The notes beneath the pieces are model-generated. The model was not told the origin of the DNA. It saw only the letters and a list, made by a program, of their open reading frames with translations, and did not search any database. 24,435 bases of DNA from a virus, in the IMG/VR virus record IMGVR_UViG_3300018405_000059, positions 1 to 24,435 of that record; one strand, 5' to 3'. Position 1 is the first letter of the stretch. The number at the start of each line of letters is the position of its first letter. This document shows positions 1 to 21,398 of the stretch, piece after piece. Made by a program: the position numbers and the translations under genes.

Positions 1-2480
1 AATTTTATCAATATGCTCAGCAAGAAGAAAAAAATGAAAATATTAAAAAAGCAGCAGAAATTTATTGGTATAATATTTTTAATAATATTATAATTAGTAA
101 TATCTGTCGGCGTAAAGACTAGCTCGTATTCATCGTTTGGCCAGGTCATTAGCATACTGGGATTTGTCCAAGTAAACGTTCCGGCTCCAGTGCCATTTAC
201 TAAAACCGCACTAGAGATAAACTCTCCGACCATCATTGGATTTGCTTGCGGCCAATTTACAATCGGGTCGATTTTATTAATCGTCCATGAAATATATATC
301 GCAGTATTCGTTCCATCTTCCCAATAGTAGCCAGTTTTAGGCGTAACAGCGATATTATAAGTCCCGGTATTTGTTTGCTGGTTGTTTGCAACGGTCATAA
401 TATTTTCATCAAAGTCCTGCAATATAGCTGTTTGTTTTTGAGTGTTATAATTATAAGTATTTAATAAACTTGGTTTTGTATGAATCGTTTGGCCGATGTA
501 TTGCATATATGCAAAGCCGTGGTTTTCTGCATCTGGATTGTTTGTTGTAATAACTGGCTCAACTAAGTATTTATTTCCGGCGTTACATGGAACTAATGGA
601 TAACTGTCTTTAGTTAATTCTGTATAGGCATAATTAACTCCACCACCAAGACCTCCAGCAAGAACAGGAACACTATTTTTTTCTCCAGTTGTTGAGCAAA
701 AAAGACTTGGTGGAAAAGAAGCATTCCAATAAGCACTGTGATAAGATGGACTACTAGAGCCACATAATGCCAATGAATACTTTTTACCAGCAGTAACGGC
801 AATAGTAGCAGTAAAATTCCAAGTTGTTGGTTGCCAATAAATATAATTAGCTGTTCCTTCGACGTAAATATAAGGACTAATTGGAATTTTGTCATTGGTT
901 GAAGAAGCGTAAAAGGTAACAGTTCCTGATGTATATGGAATAAAGTCACAAACAAAAGTAGGCCCCCAGTGTTGTCCCCCAGGTACACTTCCGTTAGCAT
1001 ACGAACTACCCATTATGGGCTTTCCTTTTCCGCCTTTTGCTGTTAAGATTCTTGAATTCAAATGCTGTTGATTATTCCAGTTAGAATCTAGGTCAGTACC
1101 TTGAATTGCTATATCGGTTGAACCCCCGCCGCCAAAGGTCTGTGGGTTTGGTGTATCTTTTCCGTCGTTCCATCCGCCAGTTGTTGATTCTGGTTGTTGA
1201 CCAACATTAACATAAAACATAGTTGGTTCTAATATGGCGATTCGAGCTTTGGAACTATCGCCATAATAAGTATTATCTTCGCCGCCGCCTTGAGCGCCTC
1301 TGGTATAGAAATTATAAACACCGGGACTTAAATTAATAGCTTGTGTTTGACCAGTATAATTAAATTCTTTTGTTTCGATAACCGGTTCTACTTCATTGTT
1401 TATAGGCTTTAAATCCTGAAGACTAGCAACAGTTAAATCACTAATCAAAAAAGGTTGAGATTGAGCAATTATATTATTTGTTCCGTTTTGTCCATACTGA
1501 TTTTCTCCACAAAACTTAATAGAACCATCTTCAAATAAAAATTGAGAAAAATAATGACCACAAGAAATCTGAGTCACGTTAGCTAAATTGTTAATTAAAG
1601 TAGGAACTTTTACTACAGACGGTGTTACTCCGTTTCCACATTCTCCGTTTGCATTTGTCCCACAAGCTTTTACGGTTCCATCTTCTAGTAAAAATAACGT
1701 ATGAACCAATCCACCAAAAACCTGTTTAACATTTATTAGATTCGGAATTGTGAAAAGTGTACTTACTTGTGTCAGCGTTCCGTTTCCACATTGACCAAAG
1801 TCATTTCGCCCGGCTGCCTTGACTGTTCCGTCATTCATTAGATAAAAACAAGCTCTTAAATCAGTTGCTATTTGTTTAACACCTATTAAATTCGGTATTT
1901 TATACAAAGCCGTATGAGAAGTCGTATTCCCCATTCCGCATTGCCCTTGACTGTTCAATCCGCAATACAGAACAGTGCTGTCTTTTTGAAGCAAAATACT
2001 GTGCTCAAAATCTAGTGATAGTTGTCGGACTTCGCTCAAATTTGGAATGGGTGACAAGTTCAATTTTGGAGAAGTCGTATTCCCCATTCCACATTGACCA
2101 TAATTGTTCATACCGATAATAATAACAGAACCGTCTTTTAATATAAATCCGGAATGATATTGTCCAGCATAAACAGAAGCAACGTTAGTTAAGCCCGGAA
2201 TAACACTAAGAGCTAATTTAGGGGAAACCGTATCCCCTGTTCCGCATTGTCCATGATTATTTCGGCCACAGCTTTTGACTGTTCCATCGCTTAGTAAAAA
2301 TAATGAATGACCGTACCCTGTGGCAACTTGGACAACATTTTCTAAATTAGAAATAACGGAAATATTTAACTTAGGAGATATTGTATCGCCTGTTCCGCAC
2401 TGGCCATAATTATTTAAACCACAAGACTTTACAGTCCCGTCGGACTGTAAAAATAACGAACAATCGGTTGAAGCTCCCAT
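1..2480 (-). CDS. RCC1-repeat / glycine-rich / Ig-like virion or adsorption protein (3' partial)
   Basis: The frame starts at ATG 2480, behind an AAGGAGG site about 7 bases upstream, and stays open for 826 codons to the left edge with no stop. Residues 1 to about 340 hold seven RCC1-type repeats of about 50 residues, each with a core like CGxNxYGQCGxG followed by a beta blade (HSLFLLSDGTVK type), which predicts a seven-bladed propeller. Residues of about 365-625 form a glycine-rich domain (GAQGGG, NVGQQ, GGGGSTDIAI, SRILTAKGGKG) resembling the ALK/LTK-type Gly-rich family found in phage appendages. The last part has two MBG-like bacterial Ig domains (TPKTGYYWEDGTN, FTPTDITNYN). It is last in the leftward series, behind the tail-fibre-like gene. 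A receptor-binding or virion-surface role is inferred from domains and position. The expected stop after the last Ig domain (around 60-90) is absent. Confidence 0.85.
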   Translation of the reverse strand, partial: MGASTDCSLFLQSDGTVKSCGLNNYGQCGTGDTISPKLNISVISNLENVVQVATGYGHSLFLLSDGTVKSCGRNNHGQCGTGDTVSPKLALSVIPGLTNVASVYAGQYHSGFILKDGSVIIIGMNNYGQCGMGNTTSPKLNLSPIPNLSEVRQLSLDFEHSILLQKDSTVLYCGLNSQGQCGMGNTTSHTALYKIPNLIGVKQIATDLRACFYLMNDGTVKAAGRNDFGQCGNGTLTQVSTLFTIPNLINVKQVFGGLVHTLFLLEDGTVKACGTNANGECGNGVTPSVVKVPTLINNLANVTQISCGHYFSQFLFEDGSIKFCGENQYGQNGTNNIIAQSQPFLISDLTVASLQDLKPINNEVEPVIETKEFNYTGQTQAINLSPGVYNFYTRGAQGGGEDNTYYGDSSKARIAILEPTMFYVNVGQQPESTTGGWNDGKDTPNPQTFGGGGSTDIAIQGTDLDSNWNNQQHLNSRILTAKGGKGKPIMGSSYANGSVPGGQHWGPTFVCDFIPYTSGTVTFYASSTNDKIPISPYIYVEGTANYIYWQPTTWNFTATIAVTAGKKYSLALCGSSSPSYHSAYWNASFPPSLFCSTTGEKNSVPVLAGGLGGGVNYAYTELTKDSYPLVPCNAGNKYLVEPVITTNNPDAENHGFAYMQYIGQTIHTKPSLLNTYNYNTQKQTAILQDFDENIMTVANNQQTNTGTYNIAVTPKTGYYWEDGTNTAIYISWTINKIDPIVNWPQANPMMVGEFISSAVLVNGTGAGTFTWTNPSMLMTWPNDEYELVFTPTDITNYNIIKNIIPINFCCFFNIFIFFFLLSILIK
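3..122 (+). CDS. Possible C-terminus of a plus-strand protein (partial, uncertain)
   Basis: An open frame enters from the left edge on the plus strand and stops at a TAG at 120-122. It encodes about 39 residues, rich in Lys, Glu and Asn, with an amphipathic-helix look (residues such as AQQEEKNENIKKAAEIYWYN) and ending in a basic CRRKD tail. This composition looks more like a genuine protein end than the Phe/Ile-rich antisense reading does. If real, it is the only plus-strand gene in the window and converges on the RCC1-repeat gene, overlapping its 3' end. No start or domain can be seen. It could be chance coding opposite an AT-rich gene end, so confidence is low. Confidence 0.3.
   Translation, partial: FYQYAQQEEKNENIKKAAEIYWYNIFNNIIISNICRRKD
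1480..2480 (-). repeat. Seven tandem RCC1 repeats (coding)
   Basis: Seven in-frame repeats of about 150 bases encode the RCC1-like N-terminal domain. Each copy has a Gly-rich loop: NNYGQCGTG, NNHGQCGTG, NNYGQCGMG, NSQGQCGMG, NDFGQCGNG, NANGECGNG, NQYGQNGTN. Adjacent copies are similar at DNA level; for example the plus-strand string GTCGTATTCCCCATTCC occurs near 1921 and again near 2075. This suggests recent duplication or recombination within the array. Boundaries are approximate. Confidence 0.8.
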
Positions 2481-2511
2481 GTAAATACCTCCTTCTTAAA
2501 TTAAATTTTAT

Positions 2512-4515
2512 TTAGAATGCTTTAATAAATAAATTGAAGCCTTCTCGTACTAAATTGATATCATAAAGCGTCTGCGTGTTCGTAAAGCTTATTGTCTGGT
2601 CACTATCATTAATAATTAAATAGCTAGTCTTAAAGCTTTCATCAAGCGTTGTCAATAATCTATCGACAAGCGTTTGTTTATATAATATACCTTCTGCAAC
2701 TTTGATAAAGCCATCTGACCGAACATTGTAAGTATTGGCTGATTGTTTAAAATCTCCGATTGCTGTTTCTTGATTATATTGAATCCCACGTTCGATGCTG
2801 ATAATTAAACCAATGTCTTCGATGGGATAACCCACAGTCTTAGAAATATCCGGTTGGTCTTGAACGACTTTACCGGGGTCTGTATCCGAGATATATAACG
2901 GCATCCCCTGACCATAGCCATTTGTGTTTGTGAATAAATTGGTTTTATGAAACCCGGCCCACTTGTATTCGAATGAGTTAACATCAATTATCTTAGTGAC
3001 CATACCAACGATATTAGAGTTATAGTCGTCTAAAGCTGAAGCTTTGGCGTAACCCGTAATCGGATGGTAAAAGATAAAGTCACCTTCGACAAATCCATGA
3101 TTTGATTTACTTACTAGCTTAGAATTTGATTCGTCCCGGACATAATAACCATCAGCCAGTTTTTTAAGTGAATTATCCGGCTGAAGCGAAACTTCTGTCT
3201 TTTCGACATAATAACCGTCAGTATTTTTGATTAATGCATTTTTAGCCTGGGTCGAGATTTTAAGGGTTTCGGAATATAATCCGTCAGTCTTAATTAATAA
3301 ACCATTAGTAACGTCTGCTGATAATTTAGTTTGTGCTGACAATATAGATAAAGCTAAATTATCATAAGTAAAGTTTATATTTGAAAAATAATTTGCTTGA
3401 TTATAATAACTACAGTATCCGTACTGAACAGCGTTTGCAAATAAGTGACCCCAATCATAATCATTTAAATCTATACTCATTTTTGTAGCTTCATTTATTT
3501 CGACATTGTTCCAATTTGAAGTAGCGACGGATATTAGATTTGCCCTTTTTTCTGTTCGTAATGTAATACCGTAAGAGAAATATGACCATCCTGAATTTCC
3601 TGCATTAGTTTGTAAATTGCCGTCTAAGGCATTCCCGGCTTTAATGATTGATTGGTCTGGTAGCATAAGGTCATAAACGATGGCATAATAAAATCCACCT
3701 CCCAGAGTTCCTCTTGATACAACTACGCTTAATGTATGGGGATGGTTAAGCTCATCAAGAGCATAGCCGATAACAAGACCGTTAATACCACCTTGGTTAA
3801 CGGTTGACTTAATTGTTGCAACATGAGTATAAAAATCATATTTCTCACTAGATACTATTCCATTAAAGGACGTAGTATCCCTTAATGGCTGATGAAGAGA
3901 TAAAGGATAACTAACATAAGCCCAGCTATTAGCGCCTGTTGGATAATACAAATTACTCCAGGATGTTCCGCAATGAGAAAATCTTTTACATTTATCATAA
4001 AAGGCATGAATGTCATTCTGATTTAGTATTTTATCCCAAATTATAGATTCAGTGTCTACTGGTGTAATTTTTGGCACATAAACTCCTGTCTTTTGAGTTT
4101 GTATGAGGTTATTAGTGTCAGAATGAATCTTAACATCAGCCTTTAGGGATTTTACTGTTGTATCATAAGTTAAATCAACGGTATTGGTATCAATTACTGA
4201 ATTAATAATATTTGAATTATTGATTGTATTAGTAATATCATCTATTTGCTGGTCGATAACTGCAATGTCTGCCAAAATATCGGTGACATGTGTATTTATC
4301 TCGGTATAGATTTCAGTCTCTTTTGTTATGACTAACTGATTCGTTTCTTGAACAGCGTCTTCAAGTATATTTAAAACCTCTTGGAGACCAATGATAGCAT
4401 AGATGGGGTGCTGATTCATCATGTCTCGGTTTATTAATTCATCGTGGTCGTTAAAGCTTGAGCTTCCGCCAGCCTCTGTATTAGCTCGATTGTGTCTGAC
4501 TAATCTAACTCCCAT
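2512..4515 (-). CDS. Tail-fibre-like / adsorption virion protein
   Basis: The product is 667 residues. ATG 4515 is preceded by an AAGGTGA site. The N-terminus carries an NQHPIYAIIGLQEVL segment, a motif common near the start of Firmicutes phage tail and baseplate proteins, followed by a Thr/Ile-rich stretch (about residues 50-130) likely to form a trimeric coiled coil. The middle (about 155-395) is a beta-rich domain with several Tyr/Trp residues that could be a carbohydrate-binding module. Residues of about 400-455 carry DGYYV repeats. The C-terminal third has a fibre-tip-like sequence (HGFVEGDFIFYHPITGYAKA, LYISDTDPGKVVQ, KTVGYPIED), with the D-T-x-P-G motif common in phage fibre and appendage proteins. 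It lies 14 bases after the lectin-like gene and 31 before the RCC1-repeat gene. A host-recognition role is inferred; the exact location in the virion is unknown. Confidence 0.75.
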   Translation of the reverse strand: MGVRLVRHNRANTEAGGSSSFNDHDELINRDMMNQHPIYAIIGLQEVLNILEDAVQETNQLVITKETEIYTEINTHVTDILADIAVIDQQIDDITNTINNSNIINSVIDTNTVDLTYDTTVKSLKADVKIHSDTNNLIQTQKTGVYVPKITPVDTESIIWDKILNQNDIHAFYDKCKRFSHCGTSWSNLYYPTGANSWAYVSYPLSLHQPLRDTTSFNGIVSSEKYDFYTHVATIKSTVNQGGINGLVIGYALDELNHPHTLSVVVSRGTLGGGFYYAIVYDLMLPDQSIIKAGNALDGNLQTNAGNSGWSYFSYGITLRTEKRANLISVATSNWNNVEINEATKMSIDLNDYDWGHLFANAVQYGYCSYYNQANYFSNINFTYDNLALSILSAQTKLSADVTNGLLIKTDGLYSETLKISTQAKNALIKNTDGYYVEKTEVSLQPDNSLKKLADGYYVRDESNSKLVSKSNHGFVEGDFIFYHPITGYAKASALDDYNSNIVGMVTKIIDVNSFEYKWAGFHKTNLFTNTNGYGQGMPLYISDTDPGKVVQDQPDISKTVGYPIEDIGLIISIERGIQYNQETAIGDFKQSANTYNVRSDGFIKVAEGILYKQTLVDRLLTTLDESFKTSYLIINDSDQTISFTNTQTLYDINLVREGFNLFIKAF
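3130..3310 (-). repeat. DGYYV-type tandem peptide repeats in the fibre-like protein
   Basis: About three tandem units of roughly 20-24 residues lie here: KTDGLYSETLKIS, NTDGYYVEKTEVS and LADGYYVRDES. A weaker relative (TGVYVPKITP) lies nearer the N-terminus. The pattern is dNaL-x-K-x-DG-[LY]-Y-V followed by a short polar strand, and is familiar from phage tail fibres. Such repeats commonly form shaft segments in trimeric fibres. Confidence 0.6.
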
Positions 4516-4529
4516 ATTGCTTTCACCTT

Positions 4530-5936
4530 CTATTCTATAACAATTTTAAATCTATAAGCGTTAGCTGTCATATAGAAATCCTGGACTGGCTTATCAAGTA
4601 ATTTTAAGTAAATGCTTTCACTTTCTGATGGGTTGATTCTGCCGATAATTATTTCTTTTTCATACATGAGGTTTTCCGGAACAATGCCATTAGAATGAGC
4701 AGCAATCATAATTTCTTCTTCGCCGCCATAATATTCAGAATATCTTATCACTTTAACTTTTACGTCGTGCAACATATAGCCTTCGCTGTTTCTAATATCT
4801 AACTTAATAAAATAAGAGCCTCTATAAAACTGACCTAGTTCATATATTTCGCTCTGGTTTATTTTAATATTGTTAATAAATAATTCGATATTGGATTCAA
4901 CCGTAAAACTATCACCGCCATAGACCAGCTCACCCAACGAAAATTCGTTAATTGTTACAGCGTAATTTGTTTTTGAATAAATCCGTAATCGACTGTTCTT
5001 AATCGGAGTTGGCATTGTTGTTGTATTAATTACGCATATTTTATTCGAACGGCTAATCATATGAGCATACTGAATATTGTCGGTTCTTAAGATAATATTG
5101 TTATTCGCATCATAGATTTCCATTTCGTATTGGCGGTCAACACCCTCAATCGTAATATATTTGCTGCTAAAAATAGCAAAATCATTAAAAATACAATGAC
5201 TTTGACTTACGATATCTGGGTCATCTGTGCCATATAGGAAAAATCCGATAACACCTGAATTTTCAAACTTAACATTCCCGATTTCAATCCAGCTAGAGCC
5301 ATTTGTACTGGCCCAGAAGATATATTTATATTTTGTCTTTGTAAATTTAATATATCGATATATTTTATCAACAAAACCAGACGCTGGCGGAATTACCACT
5401 ACCTCGCCCGGAGTGTCTTCTTCTGAATCATCCCAGCGAACATATGAAGGGTCTAATAAACTTTGAACAATTCTTTCAACAGTGGAGAACGTGTTCCCTT
5501 GTTCGTCAATGACATAATTACCGGTTGGAATTTCGTTATCATTGTCTGTCCAGCGAACATAAGTATCATCCATGATATGATGTATCATGGTTTCTAATTG
5601 GGTTTCTTGAATCTCTGAATTTACTATTTCAGATTCACTGGTTCCAAAATAAGATTGGCATTCGGCATAATCCTTAGCGCTCGACATTACAATAATTCCT
5701 GCAATATCGGCTAATTTTGCAGGAATGTGGTCTAACTGTATGACGCAGGAATAATCTTCCGTGCTTGGCTCTACGATTGTATAAGTAATATAACGACGAG
5801 TATGAGTAACACGAAGACCGTCGTCTCCGAATGATAAGCAGTTTGCATCAGACGGAGACAGTGTCCACATAAGAGTTCTTTCTGAGAAATCATCAAAGAA
5901 GAGGAGTCCATTATTTGTTTTGTTTAAGTTTGCCAT
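4530..5936 (-). CDS. Lectin-like (LamG/concanavalin-like) virion protein with inserted linker
   Basis: The product is 468 residues and its ATG at 5936 follows an AAGGT site. The N-terminal segment (GLLFFDDFSER, then alternating strands up to about residue 95) and a later segment (about 190-250, YRYIKFTKTKYKYIFWAS, SGVIGFFLYG) together look like one split concanavalin/laminin-G-type jelly roll, the fold used by many glycan-binding modules. Between them sits a linker (about residues 100-180) holding two copies of a DxxYVRWxD motif. The C-terminal half is further beta sandwich with an RGS sequence and a Tyr-rich strand (RYSEYYGGEEE). No catalytic motif was recognised. Its place among fibre-like genes supports an adsorption or baseplate role. 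The fold call rests on sequence appearance only. Confidence 0.55.
   Translation of the reverse strand: MANLNKTNNGLLFFDDFSERTLMWTLSPSDANCLSFGDDGLRVTHTRRYITYTIVEPSTEDYSCVIQLDHIPAKLADIAGIIVMSSAKDYAECQSYFGTSESEIVNSEIQETQLETMIHHIMDDTYVRWTDNDNEIPTGNYVIDEQGNTFSTVERIVQSLLDPSYVRWDDSEEDTPGEVVVIPPASGFVDKIYRYIKFTKTKYKYIFWASTNGSSWIEIGNVKFENSGVIGFFLYGTDDPDIVSQSHCIFNDFAIFSSKYITIEGVDRQYEMEIYDANNNIILRTDNIQYAHMISRSNKICVINTTTMPTPIKNSRLRIYSKTNYAVTINEFSLGELVYGGDSFTVESNIELFINNIKINQSEIYELGQFYRGSYFIKLDIRNSEGYMLHDVKVKVIRYSEYYGGEEEIMIAAHSNGIVPENLMYEKEIIIGRINPSESESIYLKLLDKPVQDFYMTANAYRFKIVIE
5430..5570 (-). repeat. Duplicated DxxYVRWxD linker motif
   Basis: Within the lectin-like gene two copies of a short unit appear: IMDDTYVRWTDNDNE (around 5547-5570) and LLDPSYVRWDDSEED (around 5430-5455). 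Both share the plus-strand string CCAGCGAACATA. Each follows a predicted short helix. The 77-residue protein at 18462-18695 ends with a related segment, ILDREYVGYSEEPD. Confidence 0.6.
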
Positions 5937-5951
5937 AACAGACCTTGTTAT
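5935..5951 (-). promoter_or_regulatory. Small hairpin spanning a stop codon and the next start codon
   Basis: On the minus strand, ATAACA and TGTTAT form a perfect 6-bp inverted repeat around a 5-base loop (AGGTC). The TAA stop of the upstream 226-residue gene lies in the left arm. The AAGGT ribosome site is at the loop and the ATG of the lectin-like gene overlaps the right arm. Folding would mask the start until a ribosome finishing the upstream gene melts it, which suggests translational coupling. The stem is AT-rich and weak, so this is tentative. Confidence 0.35.
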
Positions 5952-6628
5952 ACAATCTCAATATATTGGTCAAGGGCGACGACTTTCCCTATCTTGACTG
6001 CATCCTTTCCCATGATATTAATTAACTGATTTGCCCGGGTCATCGCTGACCGAAGTGAGCCATGAGAAGAATACAAGAACCAAGGGTCGAGCTTAATACG
6101 TTTCATCCGCTCATAATGCAAATAAGGTTTACCTGCGATGTTACTGGTCGGAGCATTTAGAATACCTTCTCCGGTAATGCTGGCAATTCCATCATACATA
6201 AAAACCATATCGTATTTAGGATTGCCTGCCTGACTTTGGTCAATAACGATTTGGTATTTTTCTTGGTCAAGTAGAGCCGCTGTTTTTTTTAACGTTCCAG
6301 AGACATCCCCGGTAAAAGCATCGGCTGGTCGAATATAGGCATACTCGATTACCGCCTTTCCTTCTTCTATTTGTTTCTGTACTGCTTCATATCGCTTGCA
6401 CTGGGTATAAATATTTAACTGAACAACGCTAAGTGCATTTATCTTAATTGTACCGGCAATAATATCCGCTTTAAGGTTTTCGTAGACCTCTTGGTTGGTT
6501 TTATAAGATGCTTCAAGCACTTCATATTCTTCGGCGCTAATCCATTCGCTTTCGGTTCGATTGGTTAACGCTCTATTAATGTTTTCATTTAGATATCTAC
6601 AAAATATCTCATACTGTGTTGTCGCCAT
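5948..6628 (-). CDS. Unknown virion-associated protein, paralogue of the next upstream gene
   Basis: The product is 226 residues, with ATG 6628 behind AAGGAGG. Its first 23 residues (MATTQYEIFCRYLNENINRAL) and last 60 residues (KRIKLDPWF ... LDQYIEIV) align without gaps to the adjacent gene at 6650-7639; I count 24 identities in the final 60. The middle differs: here it is mainly helical and charged (about residues 25-90). A short conserved stretch also aligns, NPKYDMVFMYDG versus NPKANMIFAYDG. No known family was recognised. Position between the giant tail protein and the lectin-like gene suggests a baseplate or appendage part, possibly forming a hetero-complex with its paralogue. Confidence 0.65.
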   Translation of the reverse strand: MATTQYEIFCRYLNENINRALTNRTESEWISAEEYEVLEASYKTNQEVYENLKADIIAGTIKINALSVVQLNIYTQCKRYEAVQKQIEEGKAVIEYAYIRPADAFTGDVSGTLKKTAALLDQEKYQIVIDQSQAGNPKYDMVFMYDGIASITGEGILNAPTSNIAGKPYLHYERMKRIKLDPWFLYSSHGSLRSAMTRANQLINIMGKDAVKIGKVVALDQYIEIV

Positions 6629-6649: not shown

Positions 6650-7639
6650 TTATTGAATTTTAACAAATTGCCCAAATGGAACGATTTTGATTAGCTTTAC
6701 GTTGTCTAGCCCAATCATGTCAACTAGAATCCTGGCTTTTGTTAAAGCGGCGTCTAACGAACAAGTTGTGCAGTTTACAAACCAAGGACTTAATTGAATT
6801 CGCTTATAAGTATCTTTAATTAAATAAGGATAGCTATTAGTTTCTTCGTAATGTCCGGGGATTGTGCCTGTTTCTACTTGTGTAGTTGCTATTGTTACAC
6901 CGCCATACAAATAAGTGTTTTCTGTACTGCACATAGCCATGGTTACAATTGGGGTAGTTGGAACAGACTGTTTTTTCATAATATTACCACCAACTGCGAC
7001 TAGCCCTGTGTAATATTTTACATTCTGCTGGTTGGTTGTAATCGTAAGCGATGGAGATGTGTGTTCTTTCCAGTCAAATGTTTTTAGTTTAAAAGGAGTT
7101 GCATTCGTAACCATTGATTGCATTTTCGCTTCGGTGTAAAATGGGTTTTCCTTTGTCCCGGAATCAGCATAATTATTATTTGTAACGACTGTAATCGTTG
7201 CTGGGAAATACTTGTCAAAAACAGCCTTATTGCAAATAACAATACCGCCGTCTTCCGGGGTTGCCTTATCAATCGTAGTGAACTCTTTTGAGAAATCATA
7301 TTGATTGCCAATTTTACTTCTGGCGATTTTTGTATAATCTCCGACAACGTAACCGACAGCTTCAGGTATCCATTTTTTATGTTTAACTTTTTTTGTACCA
7401 TCGTAAGCAAAAATCATATTTGCTTTTGGATTGTCCCCGCTATTCCCATAAGAAATCATTTCTTGCTGGGCATCGATGGCCGTCGCTTTGTCAATTTCAT
7501 TTGTTGAGAATATCATATGGTCAGGGTCGGTGTAAAACTCCATTGTTTCAACGTACTTTGCATCCATCTTATTAATGATGGCGGTGTTTGTGCCTTCATT
7601 CATGTATCTGTGCAGTAATTGATATTTTGTTGTAGACAT
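6650..7639 (-). CDS. Unknown virion-associated protein, larger paralogue of the 226-residue protein
   Basis: The frame is open up to ATG 7726, but that start would lie inside the upstream gene with no good ribosome site. ATG 7639 follows AGGAAGG and gives MSTTKYQLLHRYMNEG, which matches the paralogue's start, so 329 residues is preferred. The shared ends (first 23 and last 60 residues) flank a central region of about 240 residues that is beta-rich and much longer than in the neighbour (VTMAMCSTENTYLYGGV, GGIVICNKAVFDKYFP). The conserved PWF and GLDNVKLIKIV segments resemble a small alpha/beta module. Function is unknown. Tandem duplication followed by a central insertion or loss is the simplest history. 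Confidence 0.65.
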   Translation of the reverse strand: MSTTKYQLLHRYMNEGTNTAIINKMDAKYVETMEFYTDPDHMIFSTNEIDKATAIDAQQEMISYGNSGDNPKANMIFAYDGTKKVKHKKWIPEAVGYVVGDYTKIARSKIGNQYDFSKEFTTIDKATPEDGGIVICNKAVFDKYFPATITVVTNNNYADSGTKENPFYTEAKMQSMVTNATPFKLKTFDWKEHTSPSLTITTNQQNVKYYTGLVAVGGNIMKKQSVPTTPIVTMAMCSTENTYLYGGVTIATTQVETGTIPGHYEETNSYPYLIKDTYKRIQLSPWFVNCTTCSLDAALTKARILVDMIGLDNVKLIKIVPFGQFVKIQ

Positions 7640-7658
7640 ATTTGCTACCTTCCTTTCT

Positions 7659-10600
7659 TTATACCTCTTTAATAGTAAGCCTCTTACCTTTTGTCTTATC
7701 TTGATGGTGAAGTTTCCAATATTCATCTAAGCGTTTATAAGTTTCCCCAACACCAAGATTGCCTTCTCTGATTATATTATACATCTCTTCTCGGTTTTGA
7801 TAAAGATTTGCATAAACCATCATCTTTTGAGCGACCTCGTTTAATGGCTTATTCCCCGCTTTAAGGGTTGGGTCGAACTCTATATTTAAATCTTTAAACG
7901 TTCCACTTGGGACTTTGATATTGCCAATATAGAATGTGCCATTTAAGTTATTCTCTTTGGTCTTTTCTATCTTGATAATATTATCATCACCGCTAAACGG
8001 AAGTTCATAAGTAAGATTTAAAGCTGATTTAGAAACAGTATCAACCAGTTCGTCATTAATATATATATTAACCGAACCGATTGTATTTGATAATGAAAAC
8101 GTAAATGTTGTATTTTTCTTATTGGCGACGGTAAAGGTAACGTGCGCTGCGTATGTGCCAATATAAATCGGATTGTTTTTGATAACGCCGAGCTTAGCGT
8201 CGACATACATCGAATCGTTCGTGTCTAAATCATTGGGGATTAGACAACCCCCAGTATTTAATTTAGACTCTAACAAGCCGTACTCATAAGTTATAATATA
8301 CTGGGAATTTCGGATAATACTCGTTTCTGAATACCATCGAATGAGACGAAATACCCGTAAGGCTTGCTCTAATTGCTCAACCGGGAAGTATTCCATAATC
8401 CATGTATACATATATTCCAGCATTTTCTTAGTCGATTGAGTCATGGTCATGGTTCCGAATTCGAACACCTTGGCTTGCCAGATACGATAGTATTTTAGAA
8501 ATATCGTATGCATGATACTGGTCTCAACGTCGATATAGACAATCCCGATTTTATCATAGTTCGGCAACGGATGTTTGGTTGGGAACTTGGCGATAAACGT
8601 GTTATCATCTATTTCTTTAACTGGATTCTTGGGCCGCATATTGACCTTGTCGAAAATGATATCTTCAAAGTCTTGGTAGCGGGTATCGTTCTCTGGCAGC
8701 AATAATTCATCGATTCCAAACAGGTCACCCTCTAGTGGGTCTGGTGTTTCATATACCCACGCCCAATTGCTGAAATCATTGGGCAGAATGGCCATATCTT
8801 TACTGATGCGATTTACTTCATCAATTTCTCGTAAGAGTTCACAATCTCGAAGCTGTCTTTGTGAAAACAACACATCATCATAATACATTCCAGCGTTTTC
8901 TTTAATGGCTGGCGATATCATGTCTAATAGCTGAACTTCTTTTTTATCTCTAAATGCATTTACCTGTTGTTGTATTTTCATTTTAAGCGAGTCTTTGTCC
9001 GCCCATGTGTCATAGCTATAATAACACAAAGCTGGCGTGGTTTCTACAAATATAGTATCGTAAACATACATCCCTCTTCTATCTTTTATGGCGGCGGCTA
9101 AATCATCTTTAAGATTAAGCTCTTTTCGTGCTTTAAAAGCGTTTTCGTCTGAATGCATCCAGATACTTGCTTTTTCTTTTTTCGCCCATACAAACTCCTC
9201 GTAAGCGAAACTATGGCTATCTAATAAACCAAAGATATCTTTTCTGATATTAAGTTTTATTTTGTCTTTAATCATTTCGGTATTTCGAAGGTCAAGATAG
9301 ACACTGTGACCCTCCATGTCAAAAAATAATTCGGCATCTGGAGCAGCAACCGGTTTTTCAATAACAGAAGCAACAACATCTTTATCAATACCTGAAATAT
9401 TTCCTGCGGCTTTTACGCAAGTAGTTGTCATGTTGTCGATATAAGCCTGATTCCGGATTTTAGATATCGGGACAATTGTTCCAGAAAAATCGTTGTTCAT
9501 TGCGTTAAGAATATCAATCGGAATACTGTCTTGAATAACAGCATCGACTTCTAAAGCGTTAATTATAATTGTATTTCTAAAGACTCTATCCATTTGTCTG
9601 AATACGATTGTGTCTTGATGGTTCTTGAATCCCCATAAGTCTTTGTTAAGCTCTATTGCTTTTTTCTCGGTGTTTACTCGAATCATATCAGGGACATTAA
9701 TGCTATAGCTGTCTTTTTTAAGCCATAAGTCCTGAATAAAATCAGGAATTGAATTAAGTATTTTATAAATATTATTATCATAAGTATCAAACCGGGCTCC
9801 GATTTTTTGCCGATATACATGATGATTATTCCATAAAATAATTGGTTTTCTGGTCTTTTCAGCAAATAATAAAAAGTCAGCCTTTAAGGCCATACTGCGT
9901 CTTTCTTGGGTGATATTAAAAAATGTATCTGGTACAACAAATGAAAGCCTGTCTTTTGTGGCAAATAAATCCTGATATAAGTCTTGAACAACCCGGGCTT
10001 CCGGAGATGCCCAGATAGATTGTTTTTCTGGAACAATGCCGATTCTGTCTTTTTTGACGCCTTTTTGATTTTTATCTCGAACGATACTTTTGTCTCGTTT
10101 TGACAATTGAATGTCTTTTTGGTTATCAAACAAAAACTTATCGACAATACTAGCTGATAAAATAAAAGATTCTTGGATTTCTTTTTCAAACTTTTTAACC
10201 CAATAATCAGTCTGACTGACATCAGCGGTCACACCGGACAGTGTAACAGATGTGTCTTTTAAAATAATGCTATTCTTCTGTTCGATGACAGCAAACGTAT
10301 CGATATCAAAAGTATAAGTCGTACCGGTATTTTTATAGGCATAAATACTTTTGTCATAAAAGCTTTCTTTACCAAATTTATCAAGGCCTAATAGGCTATC
10401 TTCAAAAGCTATCTTATCTCCTTTTGTTCCGGTGATAGTATAGCGGCTGAACAGATTAGTTTGCCCTATTGCTAAAGCTCCGTATGCCCATTTGTTTTCG
10501 ATAAACTCTTTCGTTCGTTTACTTAGCTCAAATAATTTAAAAATGCTGTCAACGAGCTTATTAGAGCTTTTGGCGCTATAATTGTTAAAAGTATTAGCCT

Positions 10601-18714: not shown

Positions 18715-19767
18715 TTATTCGATTAGCAATCCGTCTCTCAATGTCTCAATGAATTCTGGTTCCTCTACGTCGTCAATATTTACTGGGGTGAAGATAACAT
18801 AAGTTACATCAAAATAAGAATCATAAATAATTGTCCATTTACCATCAACGGTGTCGTGACTGTATTCTTCGTGCTCTTCGTCAAAGCTTTCGCCAAAGAC
18901 ATAGCAATCATCGAGTTTAAGTCTGTCTTCCGTTACGAGACCTCTCATTTTAAGATAAATGATATTTGTCTTTAGGTTGACGTTAACCGTGTCGTCTTTT
19001 GGAAAAAATTCTAATACCTCAATTGGTTCTTCCAGTCCTTCGATGAATTCATCGAAATGCATTAGTTCCGGGCTGTCTTCATTTGCTATAACAGCGTCGG
19101 TAATTATCTTAATAAATATTTGAGAGATATTACTCCATTCACCATTCTCGCTTTTAACCCTGAAGTGATACATTCCTTCTTCTATTTGAAGATTAGGTGT
19201 GTATCGAATAACTTCTTCAATTTGGTTCCCGGGAATTACTTTATCACATAACAATAGCTCAAAGGAATTATTCTTCGCAACCTGGAAAACATATGACTCG
19301 GAGCATTGGTTCTTCCATACAAATTCAGGCATTGCATTTAAGATGCTTCCGTATTTAGGAGAAATTATCTCACAACGAGGGAAGCTTGCAGTCGATTCTG
19401 TATTAAAGCAAGAGACATGCTTCTGTATCATTTTATTTCCAACAATATCAGTGATTCCATCACTTAACAGTACCACATAACAGGTGTCTGTACTAAATGG
19501 TTCATCGGGTACATACGTAAGAATTTTATCATTGTATGATATAGAACCCTTGGTAACACTGTACTGTGAATAATCCTTCAAGCTATTAACATTTTCATAT
19601 ATTTTATTGTAATCTTTAAGAACAACAATGTTATTCCCAAGAGTACCCGGGTTGATGTCTGCGCTAAACGTTATAACAATAGAGCTATGTACGTTAGCAT
19701 TTGTAGAATGATTACTCGGAGATACGCTTAGCACTCTCAATCCAATGGTTTCATTGTTGTTGTCCAT
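18715..19767 (-). CDS. Three-domain Ig-like (Big_5-like) virion protein
   Basis: ATG 19767 is chosen over the in-frame GTG 19776, because AAAGGTGA sits about 6 bases before the ATG and would overlap the GTG. The 350-residue product has an N-terminal Big_5-like domain (about residues 8-125: VLSVSPSNHSTNANVHSSIV, ITFSADINPGTL, ITDIVGNKM). A Fn3-like domain follows (about 130-225: SPKYGSILNAMPEFVW, YHFRVKSENGEWSNIS), then a second Big_5-like domain (about 245-350: VLEFFPKDDTVNVNLKTNI, VIFTPVNI). Such domains usually serve as spacers or surface adhesins on virions. It sits between head genes and small fibre-like genes, so it may decorate the capsid or neck. No enzymatic motif is visible. Confidence 0.65.
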   Translation of the reverse strand: MDNNNETIGLRVLSVSPSNHSTNANVHSSIVITFSADINPGTLGNNIVVLKDYNKIYENVNSLKDYSQYSVTKGSISYNDKILTYVPDEPFSTDTCYVVLLSDGITDIVGNKMIQKHVSCFNTESTASFPRCEIISPKYGSILNAMPEFVWKNQCSESYVFQVAKNNSFELLLCDKVIPGNQIEEVIRYTPNLQIEEGMYHFRVKSENGEWSNISQIFIKIITDAVIANEDSPELMHFDEFIEGLEEPIEVLEFFPKDDTVNVNLKTNIIYLKMRGLVTEDRLKLDDCYVFGESFDEEHEEYSHDTVDGKWTIIYDSYFDVTYVIFTPVNIDDVEEPEFIETLRDGLLIE

Positions 19768-19783
19768 ACGTATCACCTTTTAT

Positions 19784-20225: not shown

Positions 20226-21398
20226 TTAATCAATCAGGTGAAGTCTTTCTGGAGTTGCGTAAGATTTAGCCATGCCAATGTTCTTAGCGCTACAGATAGC
20301 CCGGCCTTCATTGTAAGTACCAAAGCCGTATCGCTCGATAACTTTGATGTTGTTCAAATCACGAGATGGGTCTCTGAACTCTTCAGTTTTAAGTTCGTCT
20401 TTAACAATTTGAACACCGACATTATTGGCATCAACACAGAACATATCAAATGTTTTACCAGCTTTGTCGATTGGAGCGAATGGTGAAAGATTTACGTTAA
20501 ATGCAAACGGTAATCGACCTTGAATACTTTCAGGGCCTAATTTGAATTGTGCATTTGGAGTTTCTCGTTTGGTTTCTCTGTCGAATGGAGCGGTTAAAGA
20601 ACCAGTTAAACCATTTCGAGCAAATACCGACCATACCAGCGGATGCATGATTAAATCAGTAGGAGTGTATTCGTTGTTGTAAACAGCAATGATAATATCC
20701 AGTAAGTCATCGATACTTAATGTATCATTTAAATTACCTTCGAAATCAAGACCGGTAGTTCCGGCTGCTGGAATCTTAGCACGAAGACTGTTATCAAACA
20801 CAGTCCAGCCATGTCGTAACCATTCGTCAAATGCTTTTTGTTCTTTTAATCGAGCCATTGCTCGGCCTGCTTCAGACAACATCACAGAAACAAGGTCGAA
20901 TTCTAAGTCAGACTGTAATTCATCTGAGTATTGGATTCTTACCCCACTCTTACCTACGCTGATAAGAGAATTTTTGTGTAATTGCCAGTCTACAGTTTCT
21001 TCCGGAATTTCCTGACCTTCGGCAACGTCATGCGCTCGCATAACACCGATAGATGGGAACATTACCGCTTGACCGTTTTTCAGACGAATCTTTTTATAAA
21101 ACTTGGACGCCAGATAAACTGGGTCAGCTGACTGCCGCATTGTTCCAATGATTACTCGTGGAATCAATACCTTCGCCGAGGGAGAAGCCAAGAAATCCTT
21201 AAATTGGAAACCCGGTACCGTCTTCCCGTCTAATACATCACCGAAAGCTTGAAAAACTTTTGTATCGTCTTCGGTTAATTCATATTGGTCTAATTCGGCA
21301 TCTGTCAATGACAGGCCTTTAGATAGTTTATCTTGTAATTCAGATTGGATTGTTTTGTTAGCAGAATCCATCTGGTTTAAAATATTCACTAGAGCCAT
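20226..21398 (-). CDS. Major capsid protein (HK97 fold)
   Basis: The product is 390 residues, a typical length; ATG 21398 follows AGGAGG. Residues 1 to about 75 form a charged helical N-arm. Then comes the long-strand/E-loop region (LASKFYKKIRLKNGQAVMFP, GEIPEETVDW-like GQEIPEETVDW), the P-domain spine helix (LVSVMLSEAGRAMARLKEQK) and the A-domain with the usual TDLIMHPLVWSVFARNG segment. The C-terminus is a strand and helix rich in charged residues (ERYGFGTYNEGRAICSAKNI). It self-assembles into the prohead shell and would be matured by the protease upstream. The order protease-scaffold, decoration, capsid is standard for head modules. A GC-rich hairpin just before its ribosome site may influence expression. 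Confidence 0.9.
   Translation of the reverse strand: MALVNILNQMDSANKTIQSELQDKLSKGLSLTDAELDQYELTEDDTKVFQAFGDVLDGKTVPGFQFKDFLASPSAKVLIPRVIIGTMRQSADPVYLASKFYKKIRLKNGQAVMFPSIGVMRAHDVAEGQEIPEETVDWQLHKNSLISVGKSGVRIQYSDELQSDLEFDLVSVMLSEAGRAMARLKEQKAFDEWLRHGWTVFDNSLRAKIPAAGTTGLDFEGNLNDTLSIDDLLDIIIAVYNNEYTPTDLIMHPLVWSVFARNGLTGSLTAPFDRETKRETPNAQFKLGPESIQGRLPFAFNVNLSPFAPIDKAGKTFDMFCVDANNVGVQIVKDELKTEEFRDPSRDLNNIKVIERYGFGTYNEGRAICSAKNIGMAKSYATPERLHLID

Follow-up and report, generated by a model that had tools for sequence, protein, structure and literature searches.

A phage protein joining an RCC1 propeller to a glycine-rich domain, probably an exchangeable adhesin module on the virions of a jumbo tailed phage

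The RCC1 propeller is already known from phages, and also from their virions. As far as the accessible parts of the papers go, three proteins of the family phrog_4219 were detected by mass spectrometry in virions of phage W70 (PMC11370258), and GAP_001 of phage GAP32 is a structural protein by the same method, with homologues that are multi-copy in related phages (PMC5259590). The gp38 tip adhesins of phages T2, S16 and PP01 act in receptor choice. According to the accessible text of PMC12892980, they are hypervariable and have glycine-rich motifs. Here, a gene is described that lies at one end of a 24,435-base IMG/VR record (IMGVR_UViG_3300018405_000059, the whole of which is referred to as the window), and whose product joins an RCC1 propeller to a glycine-rich domain (GRD) of the ALK/LTK type. 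This RCC1-GRD protein is a new combination of known parts and no new kind of system, and it is probably an exchangeable adhesin module on the virion surface of a jumbo tailed phage, not a condenser of DNA.

The N-terminal part of the protein, residues 1-347, exceeds the curated cut-offs of three Pfam models (WD40_RLD, E 1.2e-65; RCC1_2, E 1.4e-38; RCC1, E 6.5e-37). The signature GxNxxGxxG occurs seven times, at residues 21, 72, 123, 174, 224, 274 and 325, with spacings of 51, 51, 51, 50, 50 and 51 residues and hence a near-constant repeat length. The seven aligned repeats share a mean identity of 44% (range 30-72%), and an ungapped 41-residue stretch of six repeats gives a mean identity of 44% versus 7% (maximum 10%) in 500 shuffles, indicating that the repeats are not due to chance. 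In the AlphaFold model, built with 35 viral relatives (from 35 of the 77 RCC1 loci described below), the predicted local distance difference test score (pLDDT) over residues 1-350 is 85-98 in 33 of 35 ten-residue blocks, and the other two reach 72 and 77. Foldseek returned UVR8 as the best match of the propeller model (template modelling score, TM-score, of 0.90 by target; root-mean-square deviation of 1.8-1.9), with RPGR, HERC, RCC1 and BLIP-II also among the matches. The seven propeller-forming RCC1 repeats that had been proposed in a sequence-only reading of the window are borne out by these results, and the fold prediction suggested there as a check returned a propeller. In the model, residues 7-11 form a first-blade strand and residues 340-345, past the seventh signature, a final strand; this fits closure of the ring, which both ends of the propeller may bring about.

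The expectation that the propeller loops differ most between copies found no support: over the seven whole repeats, the mean column entropy is 1.11 in loops (27 columns) versus 1.46 in strands (23 columns), and the mean column entropy across 36 sequences is 1.79 versus 1.89. The lower average of the loops is due to the conserved signature, which is located in one of them, and individual loop positions are strongly variable despite the low average. In most blades of the window propeller (1446..2480), GQCG replaces the usual GQLG, a variant common to this propeller and its nearest relatives in loci L059 (L059:5989-7326) and L060-L062 (L060:2430-3776). Residues 1-350 contain 14 cysteines.

The GRD matches Pfam PF12810 (E 1.4e-14; 55.1 bits versus a cut-off of 24.5) over profile positions 2-134 of 243 only. 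A GRD profile of our own, built from six phage GRD genes and with residue numbers shifted by 5 from those of the stop-to-stop open reading frame (ORF), matches two separate pieces (Table 1), and the domain is therefore interrupted by an insert, which the sequence-only reading had overlooked. A search for relatives of the insert gave a single match at E 0.07, which was not used, and the fetched loci contain no relatives of the insert, the second part of the GRD or the C-terminal repeats. The AlphaFold model of residues 366-806, which comprise the GRD, the insert and the immunoglobulin (Ig)-like repeats, is of low confidence (mean pLDDT 41), as were these parts in the first AlphaFold model; all 21 Foldseek matches at E<0.001 are ALK/LTK chains, with TM-scores by target of 0.21-0.29. 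By eye, the GRD proteins of loci L155, L158, L159 and L160 seem to contain long inserted segments too, and PF12810 was confirmed in L155, L158 and L160. Three of these four proteins are ORFs of about 1,075 residues or more within the stretches analysed, and the GRD occurs in three stretches in each of those from L155 and L158.

The C-terminal repeats look Ig/MBG-like by eye, as had been proposed, and are unmatched by any curated MBG model: no MBG/YDG model was found in Pfam (E<=10) or NCBIfam (E<=5). MpPF1 matches them at E 4e-4, below its own cut-off, and phrog_37900 at E 2.8e-10, and tblastn returned six phage records (best E 6e-6), four of which are Faecalibacterium phages (28% identity, E 4e-5). 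The final residues, NFCCFFNIFIFFFLLSILIK, are dissimilar to the preceding Ig-like repeat, an open frame on the opposite strand of the contig end reads FYQYAQQEEKNENIKKAAEIYWYN and is unrelated, and an A+T-rich near-palindrome of 24 bases (92%) spans positions 69-92. The final ~62 bases of the contig are, judging from these features, probably a chimera that does not belong to the RCC1-GRD gene; an exact search for the suspected join elsewhere gave no match, which neither proves nor refutes a chimera. The single protein of at least 826 residues of the sequence-only reading thus stands as regards its propeller and GRD, with weakly backed MBG repeats and a suspect end. Its ORF begins at the ATG at 2480, where residue 1 is already within the propeller, and this start codon is supported by the AAGGAGG lying ahead of it.

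Table 1. Coordinates of the RCC1-GRD gene, its parts and associated features (window positions unless a locus is named).
Feature	Position	Strand	Remarks
RCC1-GRD gene (ORF)	3..2480	minus	826 residues; no stop before the contig end
Shine-Dalgarno sequence AAGGAGG	2488..2494	minus	precedes the ATG at 2480
RCC1 seven-bladed beta-propeller	1440..2480	minus	residues 1-347; begins inside blade 1
GRD, part one (ALK/LTK-type)	972..1379	minus	residues 368-503
Insert within GRD	651..971	minus	residues 504-610, ~107 residues; beta-rich by eye; no family match
GRD, part two	489..650	minus	residues 611-664
Ig/MBG-like repeat 1	273..488	minus	residues ~665-736; weak; borders by eye
Ig/MBG-like repeat 2	63..272	minus	residues ~737-806; weak; borders by eye
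Contig end, probably chimeric	1..62	minus	last ~20 residues; true C-terminus outside the record
gF, tail-fibre-like	2512..4515	minus	phrog_33406 tail fiber, E 6.9e-11; last kept gene before the cassette
gE	4530..5936	minus	kept in seven sister records, 32-52% identity
Major capsid protein	20226..21398	minus	phrog_3922; 81-91% identical in seven sister records
gF C-terminal domain, recurrences	L048:9312-9833, L050:8983-9498, L050:9500-10831		

The capsid protein of the window shares 48.5% identity with that of Moorella phage MTATph1 and 39.4% with that of Bacillus phage KLEB27-3, and MTATph1 is also matched by two proteins before the capsid and by the gene 18715..19776 behind it. The capsid protein is present in 31 viral-contig loci, five of them within records of 208-218 kb, and on these sequence grounds the source of the window is a jumbo phage (~210 kb) of a group distantly related to MTATph1. 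Loci L006 and L027 encode a capsid protein 100% identical to that of the window and, judging by coordinates, end before the RCC1 locus, for which reason the RCC1-GRD gene is seen in a single contig. As a query, the whole protein had no close relatives in viral contigs and just two distant bacterial RCC1 proteins in genome contigs, and gF as a single query gave no relatives.

The stretch behind the capsid was read in eleven records, and the gene order gB-gC-gD-gE-gF is kept in seven of them (G002, G003, G004, G005, G006, G010 and G012). G004 and G005 share gene lengths and identities and look near-identical, leaving six distinct sisters. Across the seven, identity is 81-91% at the capsid and has dropped to 31-48% by gF. 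The other four records are more distant: G014 retains gB, gD and gE plus just the first ~49 residues of gF, and in G013, G017 and G018 the stretch read shows no more than a relative of gE. Downstream of gF, gene content varies between the sister records, which marks a hypervariable cassette with the RCC1-GRD gene at its edge, 31 bp behind gF and co-directional with it.

RCC1 and GRD genes were searched for in 20 of the 31 capsid loci, the other 11 lying on contigs no longer than 10,515 bases. Neither the Pfam model nor a protein query gave an RCC1 match in the 20 sister records (positive controls on the window), and our own RCC1 profile gave no match in 42 sister loci (L006-L036 and L048-L058), among which only the seven sisters are known to cover the site. 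A GRD gene is present in four of the 20 records, all within the seven (G002, G004, G005 and G012). The GRD gene of G012 (L054:9175-10419) directly follows gF, the same place as that of the RCC1-GRD gene, and in the other three records it is located further back from gF. The window phage has its RCC1-GRD gene, accordingly, where its sisters carry other genes, some with a GRD. A reverse transcriptase (PF00078) was found in none of nine sister records, the window's 24 kb record not being included (control, three of 14 genomes); a diversity-generating retroelement is therefore unsupported as the source of variation in the cassette, and module exchange is likely.

Twelve cassette genes were chosen for a scan (seven from L049, two from L053, and one each from L048, L050 and L055). 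Five of them gave matches to tail or tail-fibre/collar families, and one of these matches is weak. On the far side of the cassette, two genes of G002 have PHROG tail-sheath matches, and sheath-cluster genes lie at the same far side in L049 and L055-L058, the stretches of L050, L052, L053 and L054 stopping earlier. The Pfam sheath model, run on 14 records, had no match in the seven sisters; it exceeded its cut-off only in the unrelated G023, and scored below it in G013 and G018.

The C-terminal domain of gF (residues ~468-585 of the gF of the window) recurs in the sisters as stand-alone genes of 171-210 residues, and also near the end of sister GRD genes, like a movable docking module. The genes gC and gD (window 6650..7726 and 5948..6628) are paralogues with a common C-terminal stretch of ~58 residues, and the start of gC is probably near 7639, as several sisters align to it from residue 30.

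Beyond the sisters, the propeller matches three PHROG families (phrog_7220, phrog_16766 and phrog_4219) at E 5.8e-55 to 1.4e-42, the latter value being that of phrog_4219, and at E 1e-5 or better the protein has matches in 54 INPHARED records, which lie in the propeller for 52 and in the GRD only for two; the picture of RCC1 as mainly eukaryotic is therefore dated for phages. No INPHARED record has a single place covering 80% of the RCC1-GRD protein. Propeller relatives are encoded by 222 viral-contig stretches, from which 77 distinct loci were retained, several of them near-copies of one another; alignment A3 was made from 35 of these 77 loci, and alignment A6 from 10 of 20 GRD loci. The closest propellers, those of L059 and L060-L062, are 46-49% identical to that of the window. 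At least two RCC1 ORFs occur in 43 of the 77 loci, and L123 (L123:3215-11869) has up to nine in tandem, seven of them longer than 290 residues and most beginning with the common N-terminus YKTNEILDRSNNETIYDLYACG or a close variant. Any GRD ORF occurs in four of the 77 loci, and nowhere but in the window and its copies did our own profiles place RCC1 and GRD within the same ORF. The fusion is rare among the loci examined, which are a non-exhaustive sample, and it occurs in no other locus among them.

RCC1 propellers are also fused to tail-fibre parts. In Pseudomonas phage Ppr_SeaP4, RCC1 is fused to an N-terminal part of the T7 tail-fibre type (phrog_13481 tail fiber, E 3.3e-31; PF03906, 23.3 bits and E 5.7e-5, slightly under the cut-off of 25.2 bits). 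The first 607 residues of this protein (L161:2645-5236) align to positions 1-583 of phrog_4219, showing that the family includes tail-fibre N-termini, and for members with such an N-terminus its category, DNA metabolism, looks wrong on sequence evidence. An RCC1 protein of L103 has an N-terminal tail-fibre match (phrog_18673, E 1.6e-9), and the Foldseek matches of the propeller include PollyC and Littlefix entries that bear the name of tail-fibre proteins. The RCC1 proteins of W70 virions (L163:3620, 4833 and 5976) have a common N-terminal peptide, MLEMLNL/MLEMMNL, a possible docking tag.

In the proposed mechanism, the parts displayed on the virion would be the propeller together with the GRD, its insert and the Ig-like repeats; these would bind a host-surface protein or glycan, and the absent C-terminus would probably carry the part that joins the fibre or the virion. 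As the C-terminal domain of gF recurs in sister GRD genes, a docking module of this type may lie in that missing part, and the protein would dock to gF. The gene would be swapped as a unit within the hypervariable cassette behind the conserved fibre gene, thereby changing host range. A virion protein with host or glycan binding, as the sequence-only reading had it, is indirectly favoured by gene position, by the gene content of the sisters and by the tail-fibre-RCC1 fusions elsewhere; the published mass spectrometry speaks by analogy for presence in the virion and concerns the RCC1 proteins of other phages, not the protein of this one. By analogy, the propeller and the adjoining GRD would offer large binding surfaces, and both folds bind proteins in solved structures among the Foldseek listings (BLIP-II with beta-lactamase, ALK with its ligand). 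The presence of BLIP-II among the fold matches indicates that the propeller suits tight protein binding and would also agree with a non-virion protein that the infected cell releases or displays, for example as a protein inhibitor of the BLIP-II kind. Such a role is highly improbable, as the gene is in line with structural genes, and no signal peptide is seen by eye at an N-terminus where the propeller begins from residue 1.

Several observations weigh against a virion-surface adhesin. The gene is known from one truncated contig, its product has the propeller itself at the N-terminus and shows no anchor domain, and seven of the twelve scanned cassette genes match no tail family. The RCC1 gene of L059 follows a large-terminase-like gene, with a sheath gene downstream, so that a fibre-gene neighbour is not universal for phage RCC1, and those of W70 sit among small hypothetical genes. 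The cassette, moreover, lies between head and sheath genes, and in this phage group the site could belong to the head or neck instead of the tail; the gene upstream of the L063 RCC1 weakly matches a head-decoration family, and Ig-like folds are common on phage heads and tails. These points would suit a fibre or decoration attached to the head or neck, which would bind glycans, such as those of mucus or of the cell surface, but would not decide host range. With some cassette neighbours matching tail-fibre and tail-collar families, and gF matching a tail fibre, we consider this unlikely.

An internal head protein that orders the packaged DNA, in keeping with the family name "regulator of chromosome condensation", has been proposed in print. 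In the accessible parts of the papers, eleven RCC1-like proteins of phAPEC6 are suggested to order DNA (PMC7247149), and proteins similar to those of W70 are suspected to take part in the encapsulation of DNA (PMC11370258). The cassette does border head genes on one side. However, all parts of the RCC1-GRD protein are net acidic, with lysine plus arginine versus aspartate plus glutamate counts of 18/21 in the propeller, 16/21 in the GRD and 4/11 in the Ig-like repeats, and the RCC1 proteins of W70 virions are acidic as well (26/31, 24/25 and 22/24), which argues mildly against DNA condensation. Nor does this role fit the linkage to a GRD and Ig-like repeats of extracellular type, the variability of the locus or the fusions of RCC1 to tail-fibre parts. 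RCC1 itself, the Ran exchange factor and chromatin binder, has a basic N-terminal tail before its propeller, and Ran is not known from bacteria. In the RCC1-GRD protein, only six residues precede the first strand of blade 1, and neither a basic nor a DNA-binding tail was found ahead of the propeller. Taken together, a DNA-ordering role is improbable.

The wider proposition, that phage RCC1 proteins are largely exchangeable binding domains of the virion surface, and that the sisters swap RCC1-GRD, GRD and collar-fibre genes at a fixed site, is evenly balanced. If it is true, the propeller is a general receptor-binding scaffold of phages, used as single fused domains or as tandem arrays of paralogues, and the widespread and long-standing RCC1 annotation, with its reference to chromosome or DNA condensation, points to the wrong compartment. 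The RCC1 genes of jumbo and Vequintavirinae-type phages would then be host-range genes, which matters for comparisons of gene content, and the window would offer a case in which the swapping of cassettes at a single jumbo-phage site can be tested. The main interest is that a misleading family name is called into question. A literature search that covered few subscription journals, with papers accessible in part, recognised no paper presenting RCC1 as a phage receptor-binding module. Two hits were set aside, "RCC1" standing for algal strain names in PMC12906663 and for part of a virus name in PMC5723332; in the accessible parts of the papers on JP4 (PMC12648861) and Brevibacillus phages (PMC4909266), the name occurs in figure legends only.

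Compared with described systems, the RCC1-GRD protein has the same seven-bladed fold as RCC1, UVR8, HERC and RPGR (TM-score up to 0.90 by target), but it has no eukaryotic partner and starts in the propeller. It is alike in its propeller to the phage families phrog_7220, phrog_16766 and phrog_4219, which are filed as DNA metabolism, whereas the fusion to a GRD is absent from the 77 loci. The phage PF12810 proteins, such as the "glycine rich protein" of LIBA6276 and those of the sister GRD genes, have the same domain above the curated cut-off; in LIBA6276, however, the RCC1 gene and the GRD gene are separate and three genes apart, while in the window they are fused and the GRD is interrupted by the insert. 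The tail-fibre-RCC1 protein of Ppr_SeaP4 has the propeller in common with that of the window, and the T7-type N-terminal anchor is found only in the former. The gp38 gene lies directly behind a fibre gene, and the gene of the window, behind the tail-fibre-matching gF, has a gp38-like position. A phmmer search of the GRD against the PDB gave nine matches at E<=5, none of them named gp38, and gp38 in the accessible text of PMC12892980 has neither a propeller nor Ig-like repeats. The RCC1-GRD protein would, by analogy, work like a T2/S16 gp38-type tip adhesin.

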